A stretch of 13,258 bases of DNA from Prevotellaceae bacterium (GTDB lineage Bacteria; Bacteroidota; Bacteroidia; Bacteroidales; UBA932). Each line of letters starts with the position of its first letter. Within the stretch, counting starts at the first letter, position 1. The notes under the pieces were generated by a model that ran no database searches, was not told the DNA's origin, and was given only the letters and a program-made list of their open reading frames with translations. Shown in pieces: positions 2,429-11,627 of the stretch. Position numbers and translations under genes: made by a program. Location: positions 1-13,258 of the forward strand of contig JAITQP010000289.1 of NCBI GenBank assembly GCA_031288885.1, written 5' to 3'.

Positions 2429-3364
2429 ATGGCAAAGATTGCAAAAAAACTCACGGATTTGATAGGCAACACGCCTCTTCTCGAGCTGAGCCGCGTGGAG
2501 AAGTCCGCTCCTGCCCAAGCGCGTATTCTCGGCAAGCTTGAGTACCTCAACCCCGCGCGGAGCGTCAAAGACCGGATTGGGCTGGCGCTGATTGAGGACG
2601 CGGAGCAGCGGGGGCTGCTTACGCCCCGCAGCATTATCATTGAGCCCACCAGCGGCAACACGGGCATTGCGCTGGCGTTTATCGCGGCGGCCAAGGGCTA
2701 CCGGCTGATACTCGCCATGCCGGACACCATGAGCGTTGAGCGCCGCAGCCTGCTGCGCGCGCTGGGCGCAGAGCTCGTGCTCACGCCCGGGTTTGAGGGG
2801 ATGGGCGGCGCTATCCGCAAGGCGGAGGAGCTGCAGCGCCAGCACCCCGACGCCTTTATCCCCCAGCAGTTCCAAAACCCCGCCAACCCGCAAGTCCACC
2901 GCCTCACAACGGCAAAGGAAATCTGGCGGGATACGGACGGCAAGGTGGATATTTTTGTTGCGGGCGTGGGCACGGGCGGAACGGTGACCGGCACGGGCGA
3001 GGTGCTCAAGCAGTACAACCCCGCCCTGAAGGTGGTAGCGGTGGAGCCGTTTGACTCGCCGGTGCTGTCGGGCGGAAAGTCCGGCCCGCACAAGCTGCAG
3101 GGCATTGGGGCGGGGTTTGTCCCCAAGGTCTTTAACCCAAAGGTGGTGGACGAGATATTTAAGGTAAAAAATGAGGAGGCGTTTGAAACGAGCCGCGAGC
3201 TGGCCCGCCGCGAGGGGTTGCTGGTGGGCGCCTCGTCGGGGGCAGCCGCCTACGCCGCCATACAGGTGGCCAAGCGGGTGGAGAATAGGGGCAAAACCAT
3301 TGTGGTCATCCTGCCGGATACGGGCGAGCGATACCTCTCCACGCCGCTCTACCAGCTTGAGTAA
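2429..3364 (+). CDS. cysK: Cysteine synthase (O-acetylserine sulfhydrylase family), PLP-dependent
   Basis: 311 residues, normal length for CysK/CysM. PLP-binding Lys47 lies in NPARSVKDR; the substrate loop TSGNTG is at 74-79, [10 protein letters not shown] at 97-106, the PLP-phosphate loop GTGGT at 181-185, and the CysK-type [12 protein letters not shown] at 219-230. It replaces the acetyl (or phosphate) group of activated serine with sulfur to make cysteine. The donor may be free sulfide, or the thiocarboxylated ThiS-like carrier encoded 29 nt downstream, as for mycobacterial CysM with CysO; the sequence alone cannot decide. The frame is open from 2372, but the ATG at 2429 starts the conserved [10 protein letters not shown] region and lies downstream of the TAnnTTTG element. 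It is the first gene of the sulfur cluster. No serine acetyltransferase is in the window. Confidence 0.93.
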
Positions 3365-3393
3365 AAAATAACGCTTAATCTTAAATAAAAATA

Positions 3394-3606
3394 ATGGCAA
3401 AAATAACCGTAAACGGAAAACCGCAGGAGGTGGCTAACCCAACCTCGCTTGCGCAGCTGATGGAGCAGAACAACATCGCCCAGCCCGACATGGTGTCGGT
3501 GCAGCTCAACGAAGAATTTGTGCAGCGGGAGCGCTACGCCGCCACCGCGCTGAAGGATGGCGACGAGGTAGATTTCCTGTACTTTATGGGGGGAGGGCGC
3601 AGCTGA
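3394..3606 (+). CDS. ThiS/MoaD/CysO-like sulfur carrier protein with a C-terminal Arg-Ser tail
   Basis: A 70-residue ubiquitin-like (beta-grasp) protein. MAKITVNGKPQEV is the typical first hairpin; LKDGDEVDFLYFMGGG (53-68) is the typical last strand and glycine end. Such carriers are adenylated at the terminal glycine by a ThiF/MoeB-type enzyme and converted to a thiocarboxylate that donates sulfur. Here the glycines (66-68) are followed by Arg69-Ser70 before the TGA stop, so the mature diglycine end is not directly encoded. That implies proteolytic maturation, for which the JAMM peptidase at 5757 is a candidate. The stop overlaps the ATG of the next gene by one base (TGATG), indicating translational coupling with the activating enzyme. 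With cysK and JAMM nearby, a CysO-like role is more likely than thiamine synthesis. Confidence 0.88.
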   Translation: MAKITVNGKPQEVANPTSLAQLMEQNNIAQPDMVSVQLNEEFVQRERYAATALKDGDEVDFLYFMGGGRS

Positions 3607-4421
3607 TGGACTTCACCGAAGAGCAAATCAACAGGTACAGCCGCCACATTCTGCTGCAGGATGTGGGGGTGGAGGGTCAGGAGAAAATCCGCCGAGGGCG
3701 CGTGCTGGTGGTGGGCGCGGGAGGCTTGGGCGCGCCGGTCGCGCTCTACCTCGCGGCCGCCGGCGTGGGCGCCATCGGCATTATTGACGGCGACACGGTG
3801 GACTTGAGCAACCTCCAGCGGCAAGTCATCCACTTCACGGAGGACGTGGGGAAGCCAAAGGTTACGTCCGCCGAGGAAAAAATCCGCCGGCTCAATCCGG
3901 ACGTGCAGGTCGAAACCTACCAAACGCTCCTGACGGCCGGCAACGCGCTGGAGATAATACGCGGCTACGACTTTGTGGTGGACGGCACGGATAACTTTCC
4001 GGTAAAGTTTTTGATTAACGACGCCTGCGTGATGCTCAGGAAGCCGTTTTCGCACGGCGGCATCCTGCGCTTTGACGGGCAAACGCTGACCTACGCCCCC
4101 GACGCGGCGTGCTACCGCTGCCTGTTCCACGCGCCGCCGCCGCCAAACGCCGTGCCCACCTGCTCGCAGGCGGGCGTGCTGGGCGCCATTGCGGGCATGC
4201 TGGGGACTATTCAGGCGGCGGAGGCGCTGAAGTACCTCACGGGCGTGGGCGAGCTGCTGACCAACAAGCTCCTCACCTTTGACGCAAAAACAATGACCTT
4301 TAGGACGATTAAAACGAAACGTTCGGATAAGTGCCCGATTTGCGGGGCGCACCCTACGATAACACAGCTAATTGATTACGAACAGGCGGCGTGTGACATC
4401 TCCGACCGCCAAAAACACTAA
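3606..4421 (+). CDS. ThiF/MoeB/HesA-family sulfur-carrier adenylyltransferase (E1-like)
   Basis: 271 residues. It carries the N-terminal signature FTEEQINRYSRHILLQDVG, the nucleotide loop GAGGLG (37-42), DGDTVDLSNLQRQ (61-73) with the ATP-contacting Asp/Arg residues, and DGTDNF (126-131). Zinc ligands are C169-x-x-C172 and C243-x-x-C246. C186 in PTCSQAGVLG is the conserved cysteine next to the crossover loop. It adenylates the C-terminal glycine of the ThiS-like carrier, whose gene overlaps its start, so that sulfur can be added. Unlike mycobacterial MoeZ it lacks a C-terminal rhodanese domain. Sulfur must therefore come from a separate donor, plausibly the desulfurase/TusA/DsrE proteins of the same cluster. 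Five bases separate it from the next gene. Confidence 0.92.
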   Translation: MDFTEEQINRYSRHILLQDVGVEGQEKIRRGRVLVVGAGGLGAPVALYLAAAGVGAIGIIDGDTVDLSNLQRQVIHFTEDVGKPKVTSAEEKIRRLNPDVQVETYQTLLTAGNALEIIRGYDFVVDGTDNFPVKFLINDACVMLRKPFSHGGILRFDGQTLTYAPDAACYRCLFHAPPPPNAVPTCSQAGVLGAIAGMLGTIQAAEALKYLTGVGELLTNKLLTFDAKTMTFRTIKTKRSDKCPICGAHPTITQLIDYEQAACDISDRQKH

Positions 4422-4426
4422 ACAAC

Positions 4427-4915
4427 ATGGCAGACGAAAAGCAAGCAAAAAAGCTATCCATCATCGCCTTCAGCGGCGATTTTGACAAGCTGACCGCCGT
4501 TTTTACGCTGGCAACGGGCGCGGCGGCGGTAGGCTACGAGGTTAACCTGTTCTTCACCTTTTGGGGGCTGGACGCAATTAAGCTAAAGAGAGGTCGCGCG
4601 CCCGTGGGCAAGGGGTTTTTGCCCAAGGTGTTTGGCGTTATGATGGGCGGGTTGAAGTCCGCGCCGGTGAGCCGCCTCAACTTTTTGGGCGTTAGCCCCA
4701 AAATCTTCCGCTACCTGATGCGCAAAAACAACGTCGCCACCCTCGAGGAGCTGGTGGAGGCCGCCAAGCAGCTAAACGTCAGCTTCTACGCCTGCGAAAT
4801 GGCGATGCACGTCTTGGGGCTGCAAACAAGCGACTTCATCCCCGAGGTGAAGGACGTGCTGGGCGTAGCCTCGTTCCTGCGCCTCTCTGAGGGCGGACAA
4901 ACGCTGTTTATTTAA
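4427..4915 (+). CDS. DsrE/DsrF/DrsH-like (DsrE2-type) sulfur-relay family protein
   Basis: 162 residues. The opening SIIAFSGDFDKLTAVFTLATGAA, the hydrophobic VGYEVNLFFTFWGLD strand-helix, and the FYACEMAMHVLGL motif (119-132) identify the DsrE2 branch of the DsrE fold. C123 is the conserved cysteine expected to carry a persulfide. Related DsrE/TusD proteins accept sulfur from TusA in tRNA thiolation and in sulfur oxidation. DsrE2 proteins often occur beside TusA and rhodanese genes and are thought to act in sulfane-sulfur trafficking; some have a membrane-prone helix, as residues about 25-48 might be here. The TusA gene is the next gene downstream, beyond a repeat block, supporting a TusA-DsrE relay. 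Substrate and direction of transfer are unknown. Confidence 0.87.
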   Translation: MADEKQAKKLSIIAFSGDFDKLTAVFTLATGAAAVGYEVNLFFTFWGLDAIKLKRGRAPVGKGFLPKVFGVMMGGLKSAPVSRLNFLGVSPKIFRYLMRKNNVATLEELVEAAKQLNVSFYACEMAMHVLGLQTSDFIPEVKDVLGVASFLRLSEGGQTLFI

Positions 4916-5009
4916 TTACGAATTACGAATTAGGAATTACGAATTACGAAGACGGTGTTTAATTACGAATTACGAATTACGAATTAGGAATTACGAATTA
5001 GGAATTACG
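4914..5009. repeat. Heptamer array AATTACG / AATTAGG
   Basis: Twelve head-to-tail 7-bp units: five at 4914-4948 and seven at 4961-5009, separated by AAGACGGTGTTT. Nine units read AATTACG and three AATTAGG. Each sub-array is followed by AAGACGG, so the whole cassette appears duplicated. The first unit overlaps the DsrE-gene stop codon. An inverted stretch of the same sequence (ATTAGGAATTACGAATTA, reverse complement at 5502-5519) occurs at the other end of the intergenic block. Confidence 0.9.
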
Positions 5010-5023
5010 AAGACGGCAGAGGG

Positions 5024-5199
5024 GGCGGTTTTTGTTAATTTCCCGTAGGGGATTAATATCAATAGAAACGGGTAATCCACCCAACCCCCTTCCCCGTAGG
5101 GGAATAATAGCGACCGGCGAAACGGTTAAAGCCCTACGGGCTATCAAGAACATAGGCGTTCATTTTCTATTGATATTATTGTCCTACGGACAATCGCAA
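5024..5199. repeat. Palindromic intergenic element, copy 1
   Basis: Copy 1 of a roughly 176-nt direct repeat. It is an extended palindrome: CCGTAGG (5043-5049), 4 nt, TAATATCAATAGAAA (5054-5068) at one end, and the exact inverse at the other (5164-5178, 4 nt, CCTACGG 5183-5189). A second inner pair (CCCCGTAGGG near 5092-5101 and CCCTACGGG at 5132-5140) and a small ACCG/CGGT hairpin nest inside. The form fits a MITE-like or REP-like element; no coding capacity is seen. Confidence 0.8.
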
Positions 5200-5296
5200 T
5201 GACGCAAGGCGTGCAATGGAGCGGTGGTGTGCGAGGAGGTTCCTCCGCTGCGCGCGCTCGTACCTCGCGCGCTCCGGTCGGAATGACGGTAGAGAT

Positions 5297-5473
5297 GGCG
5301 GTTTTTGTTAATTCCCCGTAGGGGAATAATATCAATAGAAACGGGTAATCCACCCAACCCCCATTCCCCGTAGGGGATTAATAGCGACCGGCGAAACGGT
5401 TCAAGCCCTACGGGCTATCAAGAACATAGGCGTTCATTTTCTATTGATATTATTGTCCTACGGACAATCGCAA
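5297..5473. repeat. Palindromic intergenic element, copy 2
   Basis: Second copy in the same orientation, 273 nt downstream, differing from copy 1 at only a few positions including a one-base insertion. It keeps the same inverted ends (CCGTAGG 5316-5322 with TAATATCAATAGAAA 5327-5341, and their inverses at 5438-5452 and 5457-5463). Near identity points to a recent duplication or two recent insertions. Confidence 0.8.
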
Positions 5474-5532
5474 AATCACAACATGCGAAACATGGTAATT
5501 TTAATTCGTAATTCCTAATAATTCTCTCAACG

Positions 5533-5760
5533 ATGGCAACATACCATTTGGACGTAACAAAAGAGCATTGCCCGATGACTTTTGTGAAGACGAAAATTGA
5601 GCTGAGCAAGCTCCAAAAGGGCGACGTGCTGACCGTAAAGGTGACGGCGGGCGAGCCGCTGGAGAACATCCCGAAGAGCGCCGCCGAGCAGGGCTTCAAC
5701 GTTTTGTCGGTAAAGGAGGCGGAGGCAGCGGGTTTTTATAGCATTGAGATAGAAAAATGA
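5533..5760 (+). CDS. TusA-family sulfurtransferase with a CPMT active-site motif
   Basis: 75 residues, standard length for TusA/SirA proteins. C13 in the EHCPMTFVKTKIEL segment aligns with the persulfide-forming cysteine of the family motif CPxP; here the fourth position is Thr, a variant I recall from TusA-like proteins encoded beside other sulfur genes. The rest (KLQKGDVLTVKVTAGEPLENIPKSAAEQGFNVLSV) matches the two-layer alpha/beta sandwich. TusA takes sulfur from a cysteine desulfurase and passes it to DsrE-type proteins or carriers. In this cluster the desulfurase at 7625, the DsrE protein at 4427 and the activated carrier are natural partners. The stop overlaps the next start in an ATGA junction, showing tight coupling with the JAMM peptidase gene. 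Confidence 0.9.
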   Translation: MATYHLDVTKEHCPMTFVKTKIELSKLQKGDVLTVKVTAGEPLENIPKSAAEQGFNVLSVKEAEAAGFYSIEIEK

Positions 5761-6155
5761 TAACCATTCCTCAGGCAATAGCGGACGGCATTGTTGCGCA
5801 GGCGCGGCGGGAGCTGCCGGACGAGGCGTGCGGCCTGCTGGTGGGCAAGGATGGCGCGGTGGCGCGGCACTACCCGCTGACCAACGTTGACCACAGCCCC
5901 GAGCACTTCTCGTTCGACCCGCAGGAGCAGTTTGGGGTGCTGCGGGAGGCGCGGGCGCAGGGCTGGCGAATACTTGCCTGCTACCACAGCCACCCCGCCT
6001 CGCCCGCCCGCCCCTCGGCGGAGGACGTGCGGCTGGCGTTCGACCCCGATATTATCTACGTTATTCTTTCGTTGCAGGAAAAAGAAAATCCGGTCATCAA
6101 CGCCTTTTCCATTCGGGAGGGCGAGGTGAAGCCGGTTGAAATACAAATTAGCTAA
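5757..6155 (+). CDS. JAMM/MPN+ zinc metallopeptidase (Mec/QbsD-like)
   Basis: 132 residues with a complete JAMM active site: E23 in PDEACGLLVG, then H77-S78-H79 in YHSHP, followed by S87-x-x-D90, i.e. the HxH-x7-SxxD zinc motif. Prokaryotic stand-alone JAMM enzymes of this size act on ubiquitin-like sulfur carriers. Mycobacterial Mec releases cysteine from CysO-cysteine, and QbsD and HcyD trim extra C-terminal residues from carriers to expose the glycine end. Both jobs fit here: the carrier at 3394 has a Gly-Gly-Gly-Arg-Ser end, and a cysteine synthase is encoded in the same cluster. The start overlaps the TusA stop (ATGA); 24 nt separate it from the encapsulin gene. Which of the two reactions it performs, or whether it does both, is not visible in the sequence. 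Confidence 0.92.
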   Translation: MITIPQAIADGIVAQARRELPDEACGLLVGKDGAVARHYPLTNVDHSPEHFSFDPQEQFGVLREARAQGWRILACYHSHPASPARPSAEDVRLAFDPDIIYVILSLQEKENPVINAFSIREGEVKPVEIQIS

Positions 6156-6179
6156 CTACACTTAAAACACAACACAACC

Positions 6180-7619
6180 ATGGCACAAAATGAGCTGCAG
6201 CGCAGCATTACCACGTCCACCGCCAAAAAGCTGGCGACAACCACCAAAACGCCCCCGCAGATGGGCTCCATCACCCCGCGGCTGCTGCTGAAGCTGCTGC
6301 CTTGGGTGCAGGTCGACTCGGGAACGTACCGCGTTAACCGCACCAAGGTGGAGCTGAAAAAGGCGGAGCGGATTGAGGTGGAATTTTTTAACGGCGTTCC
6401 CTCGTTTCGGGCGGAGTCCTTTAGGAGGATACCGCTGTTTGCCCACATCGAGCCCGACATCGTCAACCGGCTGGCAAAAAAGTTCCAAATCGAAAGCACC
6501 GGTCTGGGCGATAACCTGATTGCGGAGGGCAAGGATAGGCAAAAATTCTTCATCGTGGCGCAGGGGCAGGTGGAAATTTCGAGCAAGGGCACGCACGGCG
6601 AGGATTTGCGCATCGCCATCCTCTCGGAGGGCGAGTACTTTGGGGAGGCCAACCTGCTGTCGGACAAAGCCGCGTCGGTGACGGTGAAGGCTATCACGCC
6701 CGCCATATTTTTTACGCTCAACAGCAACGAGCTGGAGGAAATCATTAAGGATATCCCCACGTTTAGGGAGCAGTTCCAAACGGCCATTGACGAGCACCTC
6801 CGCCTGAAGGCAACGGTGAACGCCCACGGGGAGAAGCACATTGACTTGGCCTCGGGGCACGAGGAGTACAACGTTATCCCCGAAACGTACATCGACTACG
6901 AGGAGGAGCCGCGCGAGTACCCGCTGAATACGCTGCAAACGGTGGTGCGCGTGCACACCCGCGTCACCGACCTGCACAACAACCCCTACAACCAGCTGGA
7001 GCAGCAAATGCGGCTGAGCATCGAAAGCATCAAAGAGCGGCAGGAGTGGGAGCTGATAAACAACAAGAGCTTTGGGCTGCTGGCGAGCGTGGAGCCCGGG
7101 TACCGCATCAGCACCCGCTACGGCTCGCCTACGCCCGACGACTTGGACGAGCTGCTGTCGCTGGTGTGGAAAAAGCCGTCGTTCTTTTTGGCGCACCCGC
7201 GCGCCGTGGCGGCCTTTGAGCGGGAGTGCACGTGGCGCGGCGTGCCGCCCGTAACAACGGTGGTGTTTGGCGTGCCGGTCATCACGTGGCGCGGCGTGCC
7301 CATCATCCCCAGCGACAAGGTGGAAATTCAGGGGCAATACCTCACCAACCGCGGCGTGGGGACAACGAGCTTCATTCTGGTGCGCACCGGCGAGCAGGAG
7401 CAGGGCGTGGTGGGGCTGCATCAGGCCGGCGTTTCGGGCGAGATTGCCCCCAGCCTCTCCGCACGCCTCATGGGGTTAGACAAGTTTGCCGTGGCCAGCT
7501 ACCTGCTGACCAAGTACTTCTCGCTGGCCTCGCTGACGGACGACGCCATTGCCGTGCTCGAAAACGTAGAGGTGGGCTACTACCACGACTACAACAACCG
7601 TAAAACCCTCCTGAAGTAA
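6180..7619 (+). CDS. Family 2B encapsulin shell protein with cyclic-nucleotide-binding-like domain
   Basis: 479 residues. The N-terminal arm (STAKKLATTTKTPPQMGSIT, then LLPWVQVDSGTYRVNR, 12-54) and the C-terminal capsid part (SFGLLASVEPGYRISTRYGSPTPDDLDELLS, 297-327; TWRGVPIIPSDK, 369-380) match SrpI-like family 2 encapsulins, which have the HK97 phage capsid fold. Residues about 82-205 form an inserted cNMP-binding-like domain, IPLFAHIEPDIVNRLA through the phosphate cassette EGEYFGEANLLSDKAASVTV (150-169), which defines family 2B. The position that is usually Arg and contacts the cyclic phosphate appears to be Lys163, so ligand binding is uncertain. Many copies should assemble into an icosahedral cage enclosing the desulfurase encoded 5 nt downstream. 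Only one shell gene is present, so a single-component shell is expected. Family 2 shells loaded with desulfurase have been shown to store elemental sulfur. Confidence 0.93.
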   Translation: MAQNELQRSITTSTAKKLATTTKTPPQMGSITPRLLLKLLPWVQVDSGTYRVNRTKVELKKAERIEVEFFNGVPSFRAESFRRIPLFAHIEPDIVNRLAKKFQIESTGLGDNLIAEGKDRQKFFIVAQGQVEISSKGTHGEDLRIAILSEGEYFGEANLLSDKAASVTVKAITPAIFFTLNSNELEEIIKDIPTFREQFQTAIDEHLRLKATVNAHGEKHIDLASGHEEYNVIPETYIDYEEEPREYPLNTLQTVVRVHTRVTDLHNNPYNQLEQQMRLSIESIKERQEWELINNKSFGLLASVEPGYRISTRYGSPTPDDLDELLSLVWKKPSFFLAHPRAVAAFERECTWRGVPPVTTVVFGVPVITWRGVPIIPSDKVEIQGQYLTNRGVGTTSFILVRTGEQEQGVVGLHQAGVSGEIAPSLSARLMGLDKFAVASYLLTKYFSLASLTDDAIAVLENVEVGYYHDYNNRKTLLK

Positions 7620-7624
7620 GCGCC

Positions 7625-9121
7625 ATGCCGAGCAACCTATTTTTGCACCTGCCGGACGGCGACGCCGACCTGAGCAGCGTTTACGAGTCGCTTCAGCGCC
7701 TGCAGGCGCCGCCCTCCTACGGCGTGGGGGACGTTTTCCCCGAGGCGGGGGAGCTGGCGGGGCTCTTTTTTGGCGACAGCGGCGGCGACGATACCCCCGC
7801 CGAAACCTCCCTCCTGCGAACGGCTGCCGAGCAGGAGTTTGCCGATACCGGCTACTCGCCCTACTCCTTTCTGCGCGACCAGCCCATCACCTACGGCGGG
7901 CGGGAAACGTTCGACGTGCAGGCCATCCGCAGGGATTTCCCCATCCTCCACCAAAAGGTGAACGGAAAAGACCTGATTTGGTTTGACAACGCCGCCACCA
8001 CGCAAAAGCCCAAGCAGGTAATCGACGCCATCCGGCGCTACTACGAAAGCGACAACTCCAACATTCACCGCGCGGCGCACACCTTAGCCGCCCGCTCCAC
8101 CGACGGCTACGAGGGCGCGCGGGAGAAAGTCCGGCGCTTTATCAACGCGCCCTCCGCGGAGGACGTTATCTTTGTGCGGGGCACCACGGAGGGGATTAAC
8201 CTCGTGGCGCAAACCTACGGGCGAAAGTTCATCCAGTCGGGCGATGAAATCATCCTCTCCACCTTAGACCACCACGCCAACATTGTCCCGTGGCAGCAGC
8301 TCGCCAAGGAGCGCGGCGCAAAGCTGCTGGTCATCCCCGTCAACGACCGAGGGGAGGTGATTTTGGAGGCGTACGAAAGCCTGCTGAGCCCCCGCACCAA
8401 AGTGGTGTCGTTTGCACAGGTGAACAACACGTTTGGGACAGTTTTGCCGGCCAAGACCATGGTTGCCATGGCGCGGCGCTACGGCGCGCGCGTCCTGATA
8501 GACGGCGCGCAGTCCATCCCCCACACGCCGGTGGATGTGCAGGAGCTGGACGCGGATTTCTTTGTGTTCTCGGGGCATAAGATTTATGCGCCAAACGGAA
8601 TAGGCGTGGTGTACGGCAAAAAGGAGCTTCTGGAGCTCATCCCCCCGTGGCAGGGCGGCGGCAACATGATTAGGGACGTGACGTTTGAGGAGACGACGTT
8701 CAGCGCGCCGCCCCACAAGTTTGAGGCGGGCACGCCCAACGTTGCCGACGCCATCGGGCTGGGCGCAGCGCTGGACTACGTGAGCAGAACGGGCGTCCGG
8801 TGCATCGAAAAGTACGAGCACTACCTGACGGAGTACGCCCGCGAGGCGCTGGGCAGGGTAGACGGCGTGCGGCTGGTAGGCAACCCCCGCGAGCGGGTGA
8901 GCGTAGTTTCCTTCATCATTCAGGGGATGCCCGTGCCCGAGGTGGGCTCGCTGCTGGACAAGGAGGGTATTGCCCTTCGCGCCGGACACCACTGCGCCCA
9001 ACCCGCCCTGCGAGCCCTCGGCGTGGAGGCCACCGTGCGCCCCTCGTTCTCGTTCTACAACACAACGGACGAGATAGACCGGCTGGTGGAGGCGGTGAGG
9101 AGAATTGCGGCGAGAGGGTAG
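7625..9121 (+). CDS. SufS-type (group II) cysteine desulfurase, probable encapsulin cargo
   Basis: 498 residues, about 90 longer than ordinary SufS. The enzyme domain starts near residue 96 (FDVQAIRRDFPIL). It has DHHANIVPW (215-223), D293 in LIDGAQS, the PLP lysine K319 in FSGHKIYAP, and the persulfide cysteine C457 in LRAGHHCAQP. The N-terminal extension (1-95) is rich in Gly, Ala, Asp and Pro and looks disordered, with hydrophobic patches such as LAGLFF (44-49) and YSPYSFL (77-83). Extensions of this kind direct desulfurases into family 2 encapsulin shells. The gene directly follows the shell gene (5-nt gap), supporting cargo status. It removes sulfur from cysteine, forming alanine and an enzyme persulfide. 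No SufE-type partner is in the window; TusA at 5533 is a likely acceptor. It is the last gene of the cluster. Confidence 0.93.
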   Translation: MPSNLFLHLPDGDADLSSVYESLQRLQAPPSYGVGDVFPEAGELAGLFFGDSGGDDTPAETSLLRTAAEQEFADTGYSPYSFLRDQPITYGGRETFDVQAIRRDFPILHQKVNGKDLIWFDNAATTQKPKQVIDAIRRYYESDNSNIHRAAHTLAARSTDGYEGAREKVRRFINAPSAEDVIFVRGTTEGINLVAQTYGRKFIQSGDEIILSTLDHHANIVPWQQLAKERGAKLLVIPVNDRGEVILEAYESLLSPRTKVVSFAQVNNTFGTVLPAKTMVAMARRYGARVLIDGAQSIPHTPVDVQELDADFFVFSGHKIYAPNGIGVVYGKKELLELIPPWQGGGNMIRDVTFEETTFSAPPHKFEAGTPNVADAIGLGAALDYVSRTGVRCIEKYEHYLTEYAREALGRVDGVRLVGNPRERVSVVSFIIQGMPVPEVGSLLDKEGIALRAGHHCAQPALRALGVEATVRPSFSFYNTTDEIDRLVEAVRRIAARG

Positions 9122-9152: not shown

Positions 9153-9198
9153 AAAATGTTCCGAAAAATCAAAATTTTTTGATTTTTCGGAACATTTT
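9153..9198. repeat. Perfect 22-bp inverted repeat upstream of the ATPase gene
   Basis: Bases 9153-9174 are exactly complementary to 9177-9198, leaving a 2-nt centre (in practice a 4-8 nt loop). It follows the desulfurase stop by 31 nt and could end transcription of the sulfur cluster, but no T-run follows. Its right half contains the -33 box of the next gene, so it could also be an operator or a remnant of an insertion. Confidence 0.85.
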
Positions 9199-10694: not shown

Positions 10695-10943
10695 ATGGTA
10701 CTTAATACAGCCCCAAAGACATTGAGCAACGAAGCAAAAAACAAAGTTGCATTTGTTACGTTCATCATAGAGGAATTTGCGTCTGCCTTTAAAATGAACC
10801 GCAGGGATGCTTATCAATACCTGAAAAAGTATGGCGGACTTGACTATATCTTTGAATGCTGGTGGGCGTTGCATGTTGACAACCCCTATTGGGCATTGCG
10901 GGATATTTATAAAGTATGCTATAAAAATGGAGGGTATAGGTAA
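10695..10943 (+). CDS. DUF3791 family protein, probable antitoxin partner
   Basis: 82 residues. The all-helical sequence with NKVAFVTFIIEEFASAFKMNRRDAYQYLKKYGGLDYIFECWWALHVDN matches DUF3791, which in Bacteroidota and Firmicutes is regularly encoded next to DUF3990 proteins. The paired occurrence and the abutting genes (TAA directly followed by the next ATG) suggest an antitoxin or accessory subunit that controls the DUF3990 protein. I see no DNA-binding motif that I can name with confidence. Base composition is AT-richer than that of the sulfur genes, in line with separate acquisition. Confidence 0.82.
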   Translation: MVLNTAPKTLSNEAKNKVAFVTFIIEEFASAFKMNRRDAYQYLKKYGGLDYIFECWWALHVDNPYWALRDIYKVCYKNGGYR

Positions 10944-11627
10944 ATGAGAGTTTTTCATGGCAGTGATACGCCTGTTAGAACGATTGACTTGTCTAAGTGT
11001 AAGCTGGGGCGTGATTTCGGGCAAGGGTTTTATGTAACTAAATTCTACCAACAAGCCGAAGCAATGGCCTATAGAGTTTCCAAATGGAGCGGAAAAGAGC
11101 CTGTCATTACAGCGTTTGACTTTGATGAAGTGGCATACGAAGACGATGATTTGAAGCTACTGTCATTTGATGCATACAATGAAGTGTGGCTTGATTTTAT
11201 CATACTGAACCGGCAAAACAAATCACGTAAGCAAGTCCACGATTATGATATAGTAGAAGGCCCCGTTGCTGATGACGCCGTGTCAATCCGTATCGTAGAC
11301 TATTTGAAAAGCAAAATATCGAAGGTAGATTTCCTTGAAGAGCTCAAATTCAAAAAACCTTCGCATCAGCTTTGTTTTTGCACTTTTCAGTCGCTGCAAA
11401 CGCTTACAAGAACGATTGATTCAGCTGCCGATGATATTTACCATGTTGATGATTTAATTGTGCAGCAGCTGATGGTTGATTATGAATTATCCGATATTCG
11501 TGCCGGCGACCTGTATTTTAACTCCAACGTATATTCGCAGCTGATTGATGAAAATACAAGGCTTTACCAAAAACCATGGGGGGAGATTTATAAAGCGTTG
11601 ACCGGAGAGCTGCAGCTGGAGGAGTAA
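10944..11627 (+). CDS. DUF3990 family protein, probable ADP-ribosyltransferase-like toxin
   Basis: 227 residues. MRVFHGSDTPVRTIDLSKCKLGRDFGQGFYVTKFYQQAEAMA is the DUF3990 signature. His5-Gly6-Ser7 and the DFGQGFYVT block (24-32) resemble the NAD-binding H...Y pattern of ADP-ribosyltransferase folds, to which I believe DUF3990 is related. The central part has FDFDEVAYEDDDLKLLSFDAYNEVWLDFI, and a later DYDIVEGPVADD segment is also typical. The likely role is a toxin that modifies a cellular target, held in check by the DUF3791 protein encoded with no gap upstream. Substrate, target and enzymatic activity are inferred. The C-terminal half (about 135-227) is less recognisable. Confidence 0.8.
   Translation: MRVFHGSDTPVRTIDLSKCKLGRDFGQGFYVTKFYQQAEAMAYRVSKWSGKEPVITAFDFDEVAYEDDDLKLLSFDAYNEVWLDFIILNRQNKSRKQVHDYDIVEGPVADDAVSIRIVDYLKSKISKVDFLEELKFKKPSHQLCFCTFQSLQTLTRTIDSAADDIYHVDDLIVQQLMVDYELSDIRAGDLYFNSNVYSQLIDENTRLYQKPWGEIYKALTGELQLEE

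Follow-up and report, generated by a model that had tools for sequence, protein, structure and literature searches.

Organization of the locus

The window analysed here is a complete contig of 13,258 nucleotides from a Prevotellaceae MAG (a gut bacterium; 79% complete). Its plus strand carries eight genes between positions 2429 and 9121, and for all eight the list of open reading frames and the Pfam and NCBIfam assignments agree with the families and the gene order of the original prediction:

2429..3364, plus strand: cysK, cysteine synthase A-type (O-acetylserine sulfhydrylase; TIGR01139, best PDB match 2q3b)
3394..3606, plus strand: ThiS-like sulfur carrier of 70 aa, ending in GGG and a two-residue tail (Pfam/NCBIfam)
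3606..4421, plus strand: ThiF/MoeB-type E1 adenylyltransferase without a rhodanese domain (PF00899)
4427..4915, plus strand: DsrE2-like sulfur-trafficking protein (PF13686)
4916..5532, plus strand: repeat-rich insertion between DsrE2 and TusA (direct repeats)
5533..5760, plus strand: TusA sulfurtransferase (PF01206)
5757..6155, plus strand: JAMM/JAB metallopeptidase (PF14464)
6180..7619, plus strand: family 2B encapsulin shell protein with a cNMP-type insert (NF041163, PF19307, PF00027)
7625..9121, plus strand: SufS-type cysteine desulfurase with an N-terminal extension of about 95 residues, putative cargo (PF00266)
9153..9198, plus strand: 20-pair hairpin just 3' of the desulfurase gene, the longest stem among the terminator-like sites

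The tight spacing also claimed for these genes holds for most junctions, which measure 5-29 nt or overlap, but not for the 617 nt between DsrE2 and TusA. By ORF coordinates, CysK and ThiS lie 29 nt apart, ThiS and ThiF have 1 base in common, ThiF and DsrE2 are separated by 5 nt, TusA and JAMM overlap by 4 nt, and the encapsulin gene begins 24 nt after JAMM and ends 5 nt before the desulfurase gene. The CysK start previously placed at 2429 is a reasonable ATG, the longest ORF beginning at 2372. The long gap holds direct repeats of 120 nt and 84 nt and an AT-rich 14-nt periodicity, and a searched piece of it was absent from every other genome fetched. Since the gap between DsrE2 and TusA is only about 30 nt in locus L017, the 617-nt stretch in the window looks like an insertion. 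The hairpin downstream of the desulfurase gene possibly marks the operon end; terminator- and promoter-like sites in the window are no more numerous than in shuffled sequences, and the window has no Rfam match.

The shell and its putative cargo

The encapsulin scores 557 bits against NF041163 (cut-off 400) and 370 bits against the SrpI-like HK97 shell domain PF19307, carries its cNMP-type domain (PF00027) at residues 110-190 and aligns over residues 7-467 with PDB chains 9bje, 9bix and 9bhu, which we take to be family 2B shells. The desulfurase (PF00266, 486 bits) reaches 763 bits with the 'encapsulin cargo desulfurase' model NF041166, below the cut-off of 800 and aligned at model positions 218-623 alone; its lysine motif SGHK and cysteine motif RxGHHC are present in 78 of 78 copies. 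The predicted extension is indeed there, as about 95 extra N-terminal residues absent from the separate SufS-like copy of the same genome. This other desulfurase, in a 408-aa frame, aligns only from residue 97, and four encapsulin-less members of the genus have one desulfurase match apiece, aligned from residues 93-99. With this extension, the desulfurase of the window is a specialised copy and a putative cargo of the shell. Two published family 2A cargo motifs give p values of 0.07 and 0.054 in its N-terminus, which are not significant, and occur at p<=0.05 in 3 and 12 of 59 desulfurases (one of 60 was left out).

Encapsulins of family 2 that are paired with desulfurases occur widely. Andreas and Giessen (2021; PMC8346489) list 199 family 2B encapsulin-cysteine desulfurase operons from 9 phyla, which, in the available part of that paper, resemble the window in their cNMP-insert shell, their SufS-type desulfurase with an N-terminal extension and, as in some relatives of the window, a serine acetyltransferase (SAT). 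The accessory genes named in that part are serine acetyltransferase and rhodanese, with no mention of carrier, E1, JAMM, TusA or DsrE2; a dedicated rhodanese acceptor is proposed there, and the later use of the sulfur is described only generally. The role assigned to family 2 encapsulin-desulfurase pairs, in the accessible portions of the literature, is sulfur storage or sulfur starvation. The family 2A pair SrpI/CyD of Synechococcus elongatus, as far as the available text of PMC8049743 goes, likewise combines a shell, a desulfurase with a disordered N-terminus and sulfur metabolism, but the window has a 2B shell and a shorter N-terminus, and no carrier cassette is reported there for SrpI/CyD. 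The recurrent link to carrier, E1 and JAMM offers concrete candidate sulfur acceptors and products for such compartments.

The carrier cassette and its relatives

The ThiS-like carrier (TIGR01683, 70 bits, cut-off 37) terminates in FLYFMGGG plus a tail of two residues, and of 60 carriers from genomes with JAMM, 59 have an unconserved tail of 1-13 residues after GGG. The JAMM protein (93 bits) has conserved E23, H77, H79 and D90, and the HSHP-SxxD motif is whole in 73 of 74 copies, the sole miss being a cut copy. The near-universal short tail suggests that JAMM most likely removes it from the carrier and afterwards releases the amino acid, a prediction that sequence alone affords. The E1 (PF00899, 283 bits) lacks a rhodanese domain; among 19 sequences its cysteines C186, C169, C172 and C243 are invariant and C246 almost so. 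The DsrE2-like protein (PF13686, 133 bits; 72 bits with the NCBIfam DsrE2 equivalog NF047629, below the cut-off of 210) has a single conserved cysteine, in YACEMAM, and TusA (70 bits) carries a CP motif that recurs in 43 of 43 aligned copies. CysK ordinarily uses free sulfide, and we know of no case in which it uses a thiocarboxylate.

The original prediction referred to the CysO/CysM/Mec pathway of mycobacteria, with which the window shares a carrier, a JAMM peptidase and a cysteine synthase. As a template this pathway does not fit: the synthase is of the CysK type (TIGR01139, 459 bits, above the cut-off of 351) and falls below the cut-off of the CysM model (TIGR01138, 303 against 394 bits), its best PDB match 2q3b is a cysteine synthase A, the E1 is rhodanese-less and the carrier bears a two-residue tail after GGG, whereas CysO-type carriers terminate in GG. 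We thus reject membership in that group; the CysK-type synthase and the rhodanese-less E1 indicate that the nearest kin are the sulfite-reductase-linked class and the Wolinella type.

In Wolinella, a protein-thiocarboxylate methionine pathway (HcyS/HcyF/HcyD/MetY), reportedly described by Krishnamoorthy and Begley in 2011, is said to employ its carrier to make homocysteine; HcyS is said to have a C-terminal extension, taken off by a linked JAMM, and an E1 is reportedly present. The window shares the tailed carrier, the E1 and the linked JAMM, tail trimming being predicted here, but it has CysK rather than MetY, and an encapsulin-desulfurase pair as a possible sulfur source. The available part of PMC5764234 cites the use of the Wolinella carrier for homocysteine. 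Class 4e operons (Iyer, Burroughs and Aravind, 2006; PMC1779556) comprise, in the accessible part of that paper, a ThiS/MoaD-like protein, a JAB peptidase, a rhodanese-less E1, SirA (TusA), sulfite reductase and O-acetylhomoserine sulfhydrylase, with no mention of encapsulin. Compared with this description, the window likewise joins carrier, JAMM, rhodanese-less E1 and TusA/SirA in a sulfur-assimilation setting, but it has CysK in place of MetY, an added DsrE2, and an encapsulin-desulfurase pair where some relatives have sulfite reductase.

Recurrence of the encapsulin-carrier unit

Encapsulin and the carrier/E1/JAMM genes form one recurrent unit in Bacteroidales, a conclusion that the survey supports. 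Among 25 Bacteroidota loci with full flanks, the desulfurase is present in 25, TusA in 24, DsrE2 in 23, CysK in 21 and JAMM in 19, and the ThiS/ThiF/JAMM set is complete in 15. In the order sample of 393 genomes, family 2B encapsulin and JAMM occur together in 9 (including that of the window), encapsulin only in 1, JAMM only in 7 and neither in 376 (Fisher p 2e-13, shared ancestry being ignored). Within the genus, six of the seven genomes with encapsulin have JAMM, against none of the four without. Of 12 Bacteroidota genomes in which no cassette was seen at the encapsulin, 10 have JAMM elsewhere, five of them as SiR-ThiS-ThiF-JAMM (SiR, sulfite reductase). Three loci, L040, L050 and L065, have a SAT gene between JAMM and encapsulin. 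In a second phylum, encapsulin and JAMM co-occur in 14 of the 17 encapsulin genomes of an order surrounding a Geobacteraceae MAG, and all eight close loci there run Enc-desulfurase-SAT-(MetY)-ThiS-ThiF-JAMM along a single strand. The recurrence that the original prediction proposed to look for is thus found, as the same genes in the same order in many genomes and as a differently arranged unit in another phylum's order, and that part of its interpretation stands while the CysO/CysM/Mec template falls. A chance neighbourhood in a single genome would be in keeping with the local rearrangement seen in the 617-nt repeat insertion, but it is already refuted, since the genes recur together in many genomes and also in a second phylum, and its probability is close to nil.

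It is possible that the sulfur of the encapsulated desulfurase passes through the carrier to MetY, giving homocysteine from cysteine with no need for transsulfuration, CysK being the return arm. Seven of the eight Geobacteraceae-order loci, and L044, have MetY within the operon; the gene directly follows the desulfurase in L138 and is divergent in L143, and Wolinella reportedly provides the precedent of such a carrier serving homocysteine synthesis. However, the operon of the window has no MetY gene (PF01053), and the conserved sulfhydrylase of the Bacteroidales loci is CysK (21 of 25) and not MetY (1 of 25), so this scenario seems improbable.

Cassette and encapsulin apart

Conservation of carrier and JAMM genes without any link to encapsulin had been named as evidence against a joint system, and it is found in part: of the 16 genomes with JAMM in the order sample, 7 lack encapsulin, as do 46 of 60 in the Geobacteraceae order. 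Such encapsulin-free cassettes often adjoin sulfite reductase (SiR)-TusA. Conversely, in a phylum sample of 345 genomes, 3 have JAMM (E<=1e-30) and 53 score above the cut-off of the encapsulin model. The encapsulin matches include 47 genomes of family f136 (one merely a fragment below the cut-off), with JAMM at E<=1e-30 in 0 of the 47; six other genomes match in the shell part only, with no cNMP match, and thus look like family 2A. Since cassettes without encapsulin and encapsulins without JAMM both exist, neither needs the other, and the idea that encapsulin is the general partner of the cassette is rejected on the strength of this sample and its 47 f136 genomes.

The f136 loci also bear on whether the carrier might serve another thio-product (thiamine thiazole, molybdopterin, tRNA thiolation or a secondary metabolite), in which case the operon would not be about cysteine. 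ThiS lies behind the encapsulin-desulfurase operon in 4 of 6 fetched f136 loci, and L264, the sole one annotated further, has ThiS-ThiG-ThiH-ThiF thiazole genes. Yet a Pfam scan of the window genes outside the cassette returned no thiazole, molybdopterin or tRNA-thiolation family, and window-type carriers differ in being tailed and in lying beside CysK, MetY or SAT. The f136 carriers (thiazole-linked in L264) are bare-ended in 4 of 4 detected cases, with no such JAMM found in those loci; a thiamine role for the window carrier is therefore rejected, and another thio-product is in general very improbable.

The relation to sulfite reductase is best seen in the slot that follows CysK-ThiS-MetY-ThiF-DsrE2-TusA-JAMM, which holds SiR in G245 (L131) and Enc-CD (encapsulin-desulfurase) in L044. 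Given that the cassette also occurs encapsulin-free, this swap indicates a known type of protein-thiocarboxylate operon into which encapsulin and desulfurase have been plugged: a protein compartment occupies the place held by sulfite reductase in a relative. Short 'SiR' matches in Geobacteraceae-order loci are TusA, and SiR tags on encapsulin loci in the ThiF tree, which arise because the SiR query includes a TusA part, were disregarded. Of 51 encapsulin genomes, 24 have sulfite reductase (PF01077), 17 of them among the 44 from Bacteroidota; this leaves unsupported the notion of encapsulin as a substitute for a lost sulfite reductase; in the genus, the three of seven encapsulin-bearing genomes with sulfite reductase are the three most complete. 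Neither sulfite reductase nor serine acetyltransferase was found in the genome of the window, which says little in a MAG that is 79% complete, and sulfite reductase and O-acetylhomoserine sulfhydrylase, both of which occur in relatives, are absent among the scanned genes of the window.

Perhaps the two modules merely share control: a cassette fed by SiR or sulfide would make cysteine, while encapsulin and desulfurase would act apart from it, storing overflow cysteine or detoxifying it, and be kept in the same operon only for common regulation. In keeping with this, five of the seven order-sample genomes that have JAMM but no encapsulin carry the cassette next to sulfite reductase (the match in G177 being a 100-residue SiR piece alone, and G275 being cut), and in five encapsulin genomes the cassette sits at the sulfite reductase locus, away from the encapsulin. 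Yet in 5 of the 25 full loci TusA and DsrE2 remain with encapsulin, desulfurase and CysK (order CysK-DsrE2-TusA-Enc-CD) where the cassette sits elsewhere, which suggests that the shell passes sulfur on to them, and desulfurase and carrier genes are united in more than one arrangement. Shared regulation alone is thus rather unlikely.

A proposed route for sulfur

A more appealing scenario, to which we give about an even chance, is that the locus is a protein-thiocarboxylate sulfur-assimilation operon in which a family 2B encapsulin with its desulfurase has been inserted as a sulfur store or supplier. Similar joins in other bacteria suggest that the compartment feeds the carrier pathway, or the pathway the compartment. 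In the former direction, JAMM would remove the short tail of the carrier, exposing the terminal glycine that the E1 would then adenylate. The desulfurase would make sulfane sulfur from cysteine, to be kept in or at the shell, from which TusA and DsrE2 would pick it up as persulfide and pass it on to give the carrier thiocarboxylate. CysK may couple this sulfur to O-acetylserine provided by serine acetyltransferase, whereupon JAMM would cleave the same Gly-X bond anew, letting cysteine out and recycling the carrier. The shell would thus bank cysteine sulfur for later rebuilding into cysteine, and in relatives sulfite reductase-TusA would be the other source from which this carrier receives sulfur. 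Against this scenario, turning cysteine into sulfur and back again achieves nothing unless storage or timing is part of the scheme.

More tentatively, and with less than even confidence, we propose that a single carrier machine can draw its sulfur from either encapsulin-desulfurase or sulfite reductase, the two being interchangeable and using a common slot, with sulfur banked in the shell and passing as TusA/DsrE2 persulfide to the tail-trimmed, ubiquitin-like carrier and on to cysteine (through CysK) or homocysteine (through MetY). If true, this would explain how sulfur exits a family 2 encapsulin.

An encapsulin operon that includes a carrier, E1 and JAMM cassette

The operon that joins a family 2B encapsulin (Enc) to a cassette of ThiS carrier, ThiF E1 and JAMM peptidase is real and recurrent. 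In the window, the eight genes named by the original prediction, encoding CysK-type cysteine synthase, ThiS-like carrier, ThiF-like E1, DsrE2, TusA, JAMM, encapsulin and a SufS-type cysteine desulfurase (CD), lie on a single strand in the order it gave, and family searches concur. Neighbouring genes are spaced as tightly as it described, by 5 to 29 nt, or overlap by 1 to 4 bases, except for DsrE2 and TusA, between which a repeat-rich piece intervenes. This piece and the main flanking features are:

4916-5532, repeat-rich insertion of 617 nt inside the operon, between DsrE2 and TusA
126-1034, PD-(D/E)XK nuclease family protein
1474-2290, HigB-type toxin and HTH protein
10695-11627, DUF3791/DUF3990 pair

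The insertion contains a pair of 120-nt direct repeats that are 96% alike, a pair of 84-nt repeats, an AT-rich 14-nt periodicity and matching inverted arms at its far end; an exact search for a 32-base piece of it among the 311 loci fetched matched only three, each of them part of the window's own contig. A 20-pair hairpin lies directly 3' of the desulfurase gene. Family searches of the window genes revealed no sulfur link among the flanking genes, which further include DciA, an AAA/DUF4143 ATPase, EamA and DUF5618. The genome, 79% complete, amounts to 2.49 Mb spread over 320 contigs, one of which is the window in its entirety. Judged by the shell protein, its closest public relatives are MAGs named Prevotellaceae bacterium, Candidatus Symbiothrix and Dysgonamonadaceae, probably of termite-gut origin.

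The E1 consists of a ThiF domain alone. The E, H, H and D residues of JAMM are kept in all 20 aligned sequences, and the HSHP...SxxD part is intact in 73 of 74 copies. The encapsulin scores above the family 2B cut-off and resembles solved chains of the same layout across nearly its full length; according to PMC12407261, cyclic nucleotides are not bound by the cNMP-like domain in shells of this kind. The window desulfurase has about 95 additional N-terminal residues: a second SufS-like copy in the same genome is 45% identical and aligns only from residue 97, and genus members without encapsulin (n=4) have one such SufS-like match apiece. Encapsulin-linked desulfurases carry 48-226 residues ahead of the RxDFP motif, where the SufS domain starts, in 59 of 60 proteins; locus L059 was excluded from this set, as its chosen start gave 26 residues and the open frame permits 246. 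The two cargo motifs given in PMC8049743 were not significant when scored in the window desulfurase. Tandem encapsulin 2B genes precede the desulfurase in L295, L303, L308, L059, L055 and L057, and two-component shells with paired encapsulin genes have already been published.

Recurrence in Bacteroidales and in a second phylum

The same genes recur in order in many Bacteroidales, and a second phylum has a differently arranged unit. A shell-protein scan gave 65 loci, 47 of them from Bacteroidota by title (a few sharing a genome) and many cut by contig ends; these 47 carry desulfurase (44), TusA (41), DsrE2 (38), CysK (33), JAMM (31), ThiF (23) and ThiS (21). Among the 25 loci with full flanks (at least 4.9 kb upstream and at least 1.5 kb downstream), desulfurase is found in 25, TusA in 24, DsrE2 in 23, CysK in 21 and JAMM in 19, with all of ThiS, ThiF and JAMM in 15 and none of the three in 6. 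Nine of the 25 have the exact window order, and five read CysK-DsrE2-TusA-Enc-CD, including Dysgonomonas capnocytophagoides DSM 22835 (L042). Serine acetyltransferase (SAT) is inserted between JAMM and encapsulin in L040, L050 and L065, three further loci of the 25 that otherwise keep the window order, follows the desulfurase in L143 and lies about 6 kb upstream in L029. On the L065 contig, shared with L220, E1, JAMM, shell and desulfurase each match in two pieces, reflecting either sequencing error or decay. In genome G145, contigs L137 and L138 end just past TusA and just before encapsulin, unjoined; cassette and shell may adjoin there too.

In the order to which G463 belongs, by its title a Geobacteraceae MAG (141 genomes; JAMM at E≤1e-30, encapsulin 2B over the cut-off), encapsulin 2B occurs in 17 and JAMM in 60 genomes, with both in 14, encapsulin only in 3 and JAMM only in 46 (Fisher p 5e-4); the two lie 5.1-6.2 kb apart in 8 genomes. 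All eight fetched loci (L294-L301) read Enc-CD-SAT-...-ThiS-ThiF-JAMM on a single strand. O-acetylhomoserine sulfhydrylase (MetY) is present in 7/8, as is a sulfite reductase (SiR)-like gene with weak matches (23-28% identity); in L297, the only locus annotated, Pfam confirms NIR_SIR and SAT. DsrE2-TusA precedes the shell in five of the eight; in two more the sequence breaks off at the shell, and in L296 the 1.4 kb before it lacks both genes.

The Bacteroidales shells group (100/100) with those of f136, a family within a phylum sample of 345 genomes, and not with those of the G463 order, and the E1s of each order form their own group in the ThiF tree (100/100 and 98/91). These groupings, from trees that are only midpoint-rooted and, for the shell, carry long-branch warnings, argue that the encapsulin-cassette link probably formed more than once. 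Within Bacteroidales, the cassette stands at the encapsulin in L046/L047, whereas in their sister L223 it lies elsewhere (support 99/85), pointing to relocation.

The link that the original prediction drew thus recurs, but it is not obligate: encapsulin occurs without the cassette JAMM in f136, and JAMM without encapsulin in both orders. This JAMM was found in none of 47 f136 genomes with an encapsulin 2B hit. The f136 operon is CysK-SAT-Enc-CD in five of six fetched loci (L264-L269), the sixth, L266, being cut within CysK. Thiazole genes lie behind the Enc-CD operon in L264, a third link of Enc-CD with a ThiS-type carrier, without JAMM and without tail. In Chlorobium and Pelodictyon, ThiS/ThiG adjoin cysteine synthase, according to Iyer et al. 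2006 (PMC1779556); our guess is that f136 is their family.

Encapsulin and sulfite reductase in the same slot

JAMM was found in 44 of 55 genomes searched, and most of these 44 hold a single copy, so that the sulfur inputs probably have one carrier machine in common. Twelve Bacteroidota encapsulin genomes have no cassette at the encapsulin, some on contigs too short to judge (G007, whose contig begins inside encapsulin and which has no JAMM match, and L070/L072 are left out). Ten of these carry JAMM elsewhere and two, G440 and G447, nowhere in the genome. In five of the ten, JAMM sits behind a SiR-TusA fusion as SiR-ThiS-ThiF-JAMM (L207, L212, L213, L218, L229); in the other five (L222-L226), no SiR was found on the fetched JAMM stretch. 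In G098 the carrier is at the encapsulin, and E1 and JAMM lie with MetY and SiR about 20 kb distant on the same contig.

Across the window's order (393 genomes; JAMM at E≤1e-8, encapsulin 2B over the cut-off), JAMM occurs in 16 and encapsulin 2B in 10 genomes: both in 9, counting the window genome, JAMM only in 7 and encapsulin only in G271 (65% complete). Their co-presence has a Fisher p of 2e-13, kinship ignored. SiR adjoins the cassette in five of the seven JAMM-only genomes (G064, G157, G245, G252, G424); G177 has just a 100-residue C-terminal SiR piece, and the stretch of G275 is cut. The order CysK-ThiS-MetY-ThiF-DsrE2-TusA-JAMM runs on into SiR and siroheme genes in G245 (L131), and into Enc-desulfurase in L044. 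Of all the observations, this exchange within one slot hints most strongly that encapsulin acts as a sulfur input.

Sulfur storage has reportedly been described for a family 2A encapsulin. PMC8346489 counts 199 family 2B Enc-desulfurase operons, with serine acetyltransferase and rhodanese as the most enriched accessories in desulfurase operons; a carrier-E1-JAB-SirA-sulfite reductase class appears in PMC1779556, a Wolinella methionine pathway of this type is cited in PMC5764234, and PMC12407261 mentions briefly that encapsulated desulfurases take part in sulfur storage. A literature search gave no paper that joins encapsulin to thiocarboxylate, and no such link appears among the titles and abstract starts listed; supplementary neighbourhood tables, outside that scope, may list it unremarked. 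We give an even chance to the best reading, in which the operon combines thiocarboxylate-type sulfur assimilation with an Enc-desulfurase module serving as sulfur bank or input. This reading takes in the observed gene content, gene order, carrier tails and active sites, and adds packaging, storage and sulfur flow as inferred steps.

Carrier tails and the JAMM peptidase

All 22 carriers of a first set end in FLYFMGGG plus 1 to 13 residues, the tail sequence being unconserved. Among 60 distinct carriers (61 read, L227 and L272 being the same gene), 59 have a tail after GGG, the exception, L131, stopping exactly at GGG. JAMM shares the stretch with 59 of the 60 carriers; for the remaining one (L135, from G098) it lies about 20 kb off in the same genome. 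The f136 carriers have a bare end in 4/4 detected, JAMM of this kind was not found in that family, and L264, its sole locus annotated further, reads ThiS-ThiG-ThiH-ThiF. A tail needing removal and a linked peptidase each explain the other. By analogy with the Mycobacterium and Wolinella systems, JAMM would also free the amino acid from the carrier.

The nearest solved relative of JAMM is PDB 2kks, labelled 'uncharacterized protein'. That of the carrier is 2k5p/3cwi, labelled a thiamine-biosynthesis ThiS; since it ends in FLYFMGGG plus one residue, the thiamine annotation of 2k5p may be wrong.
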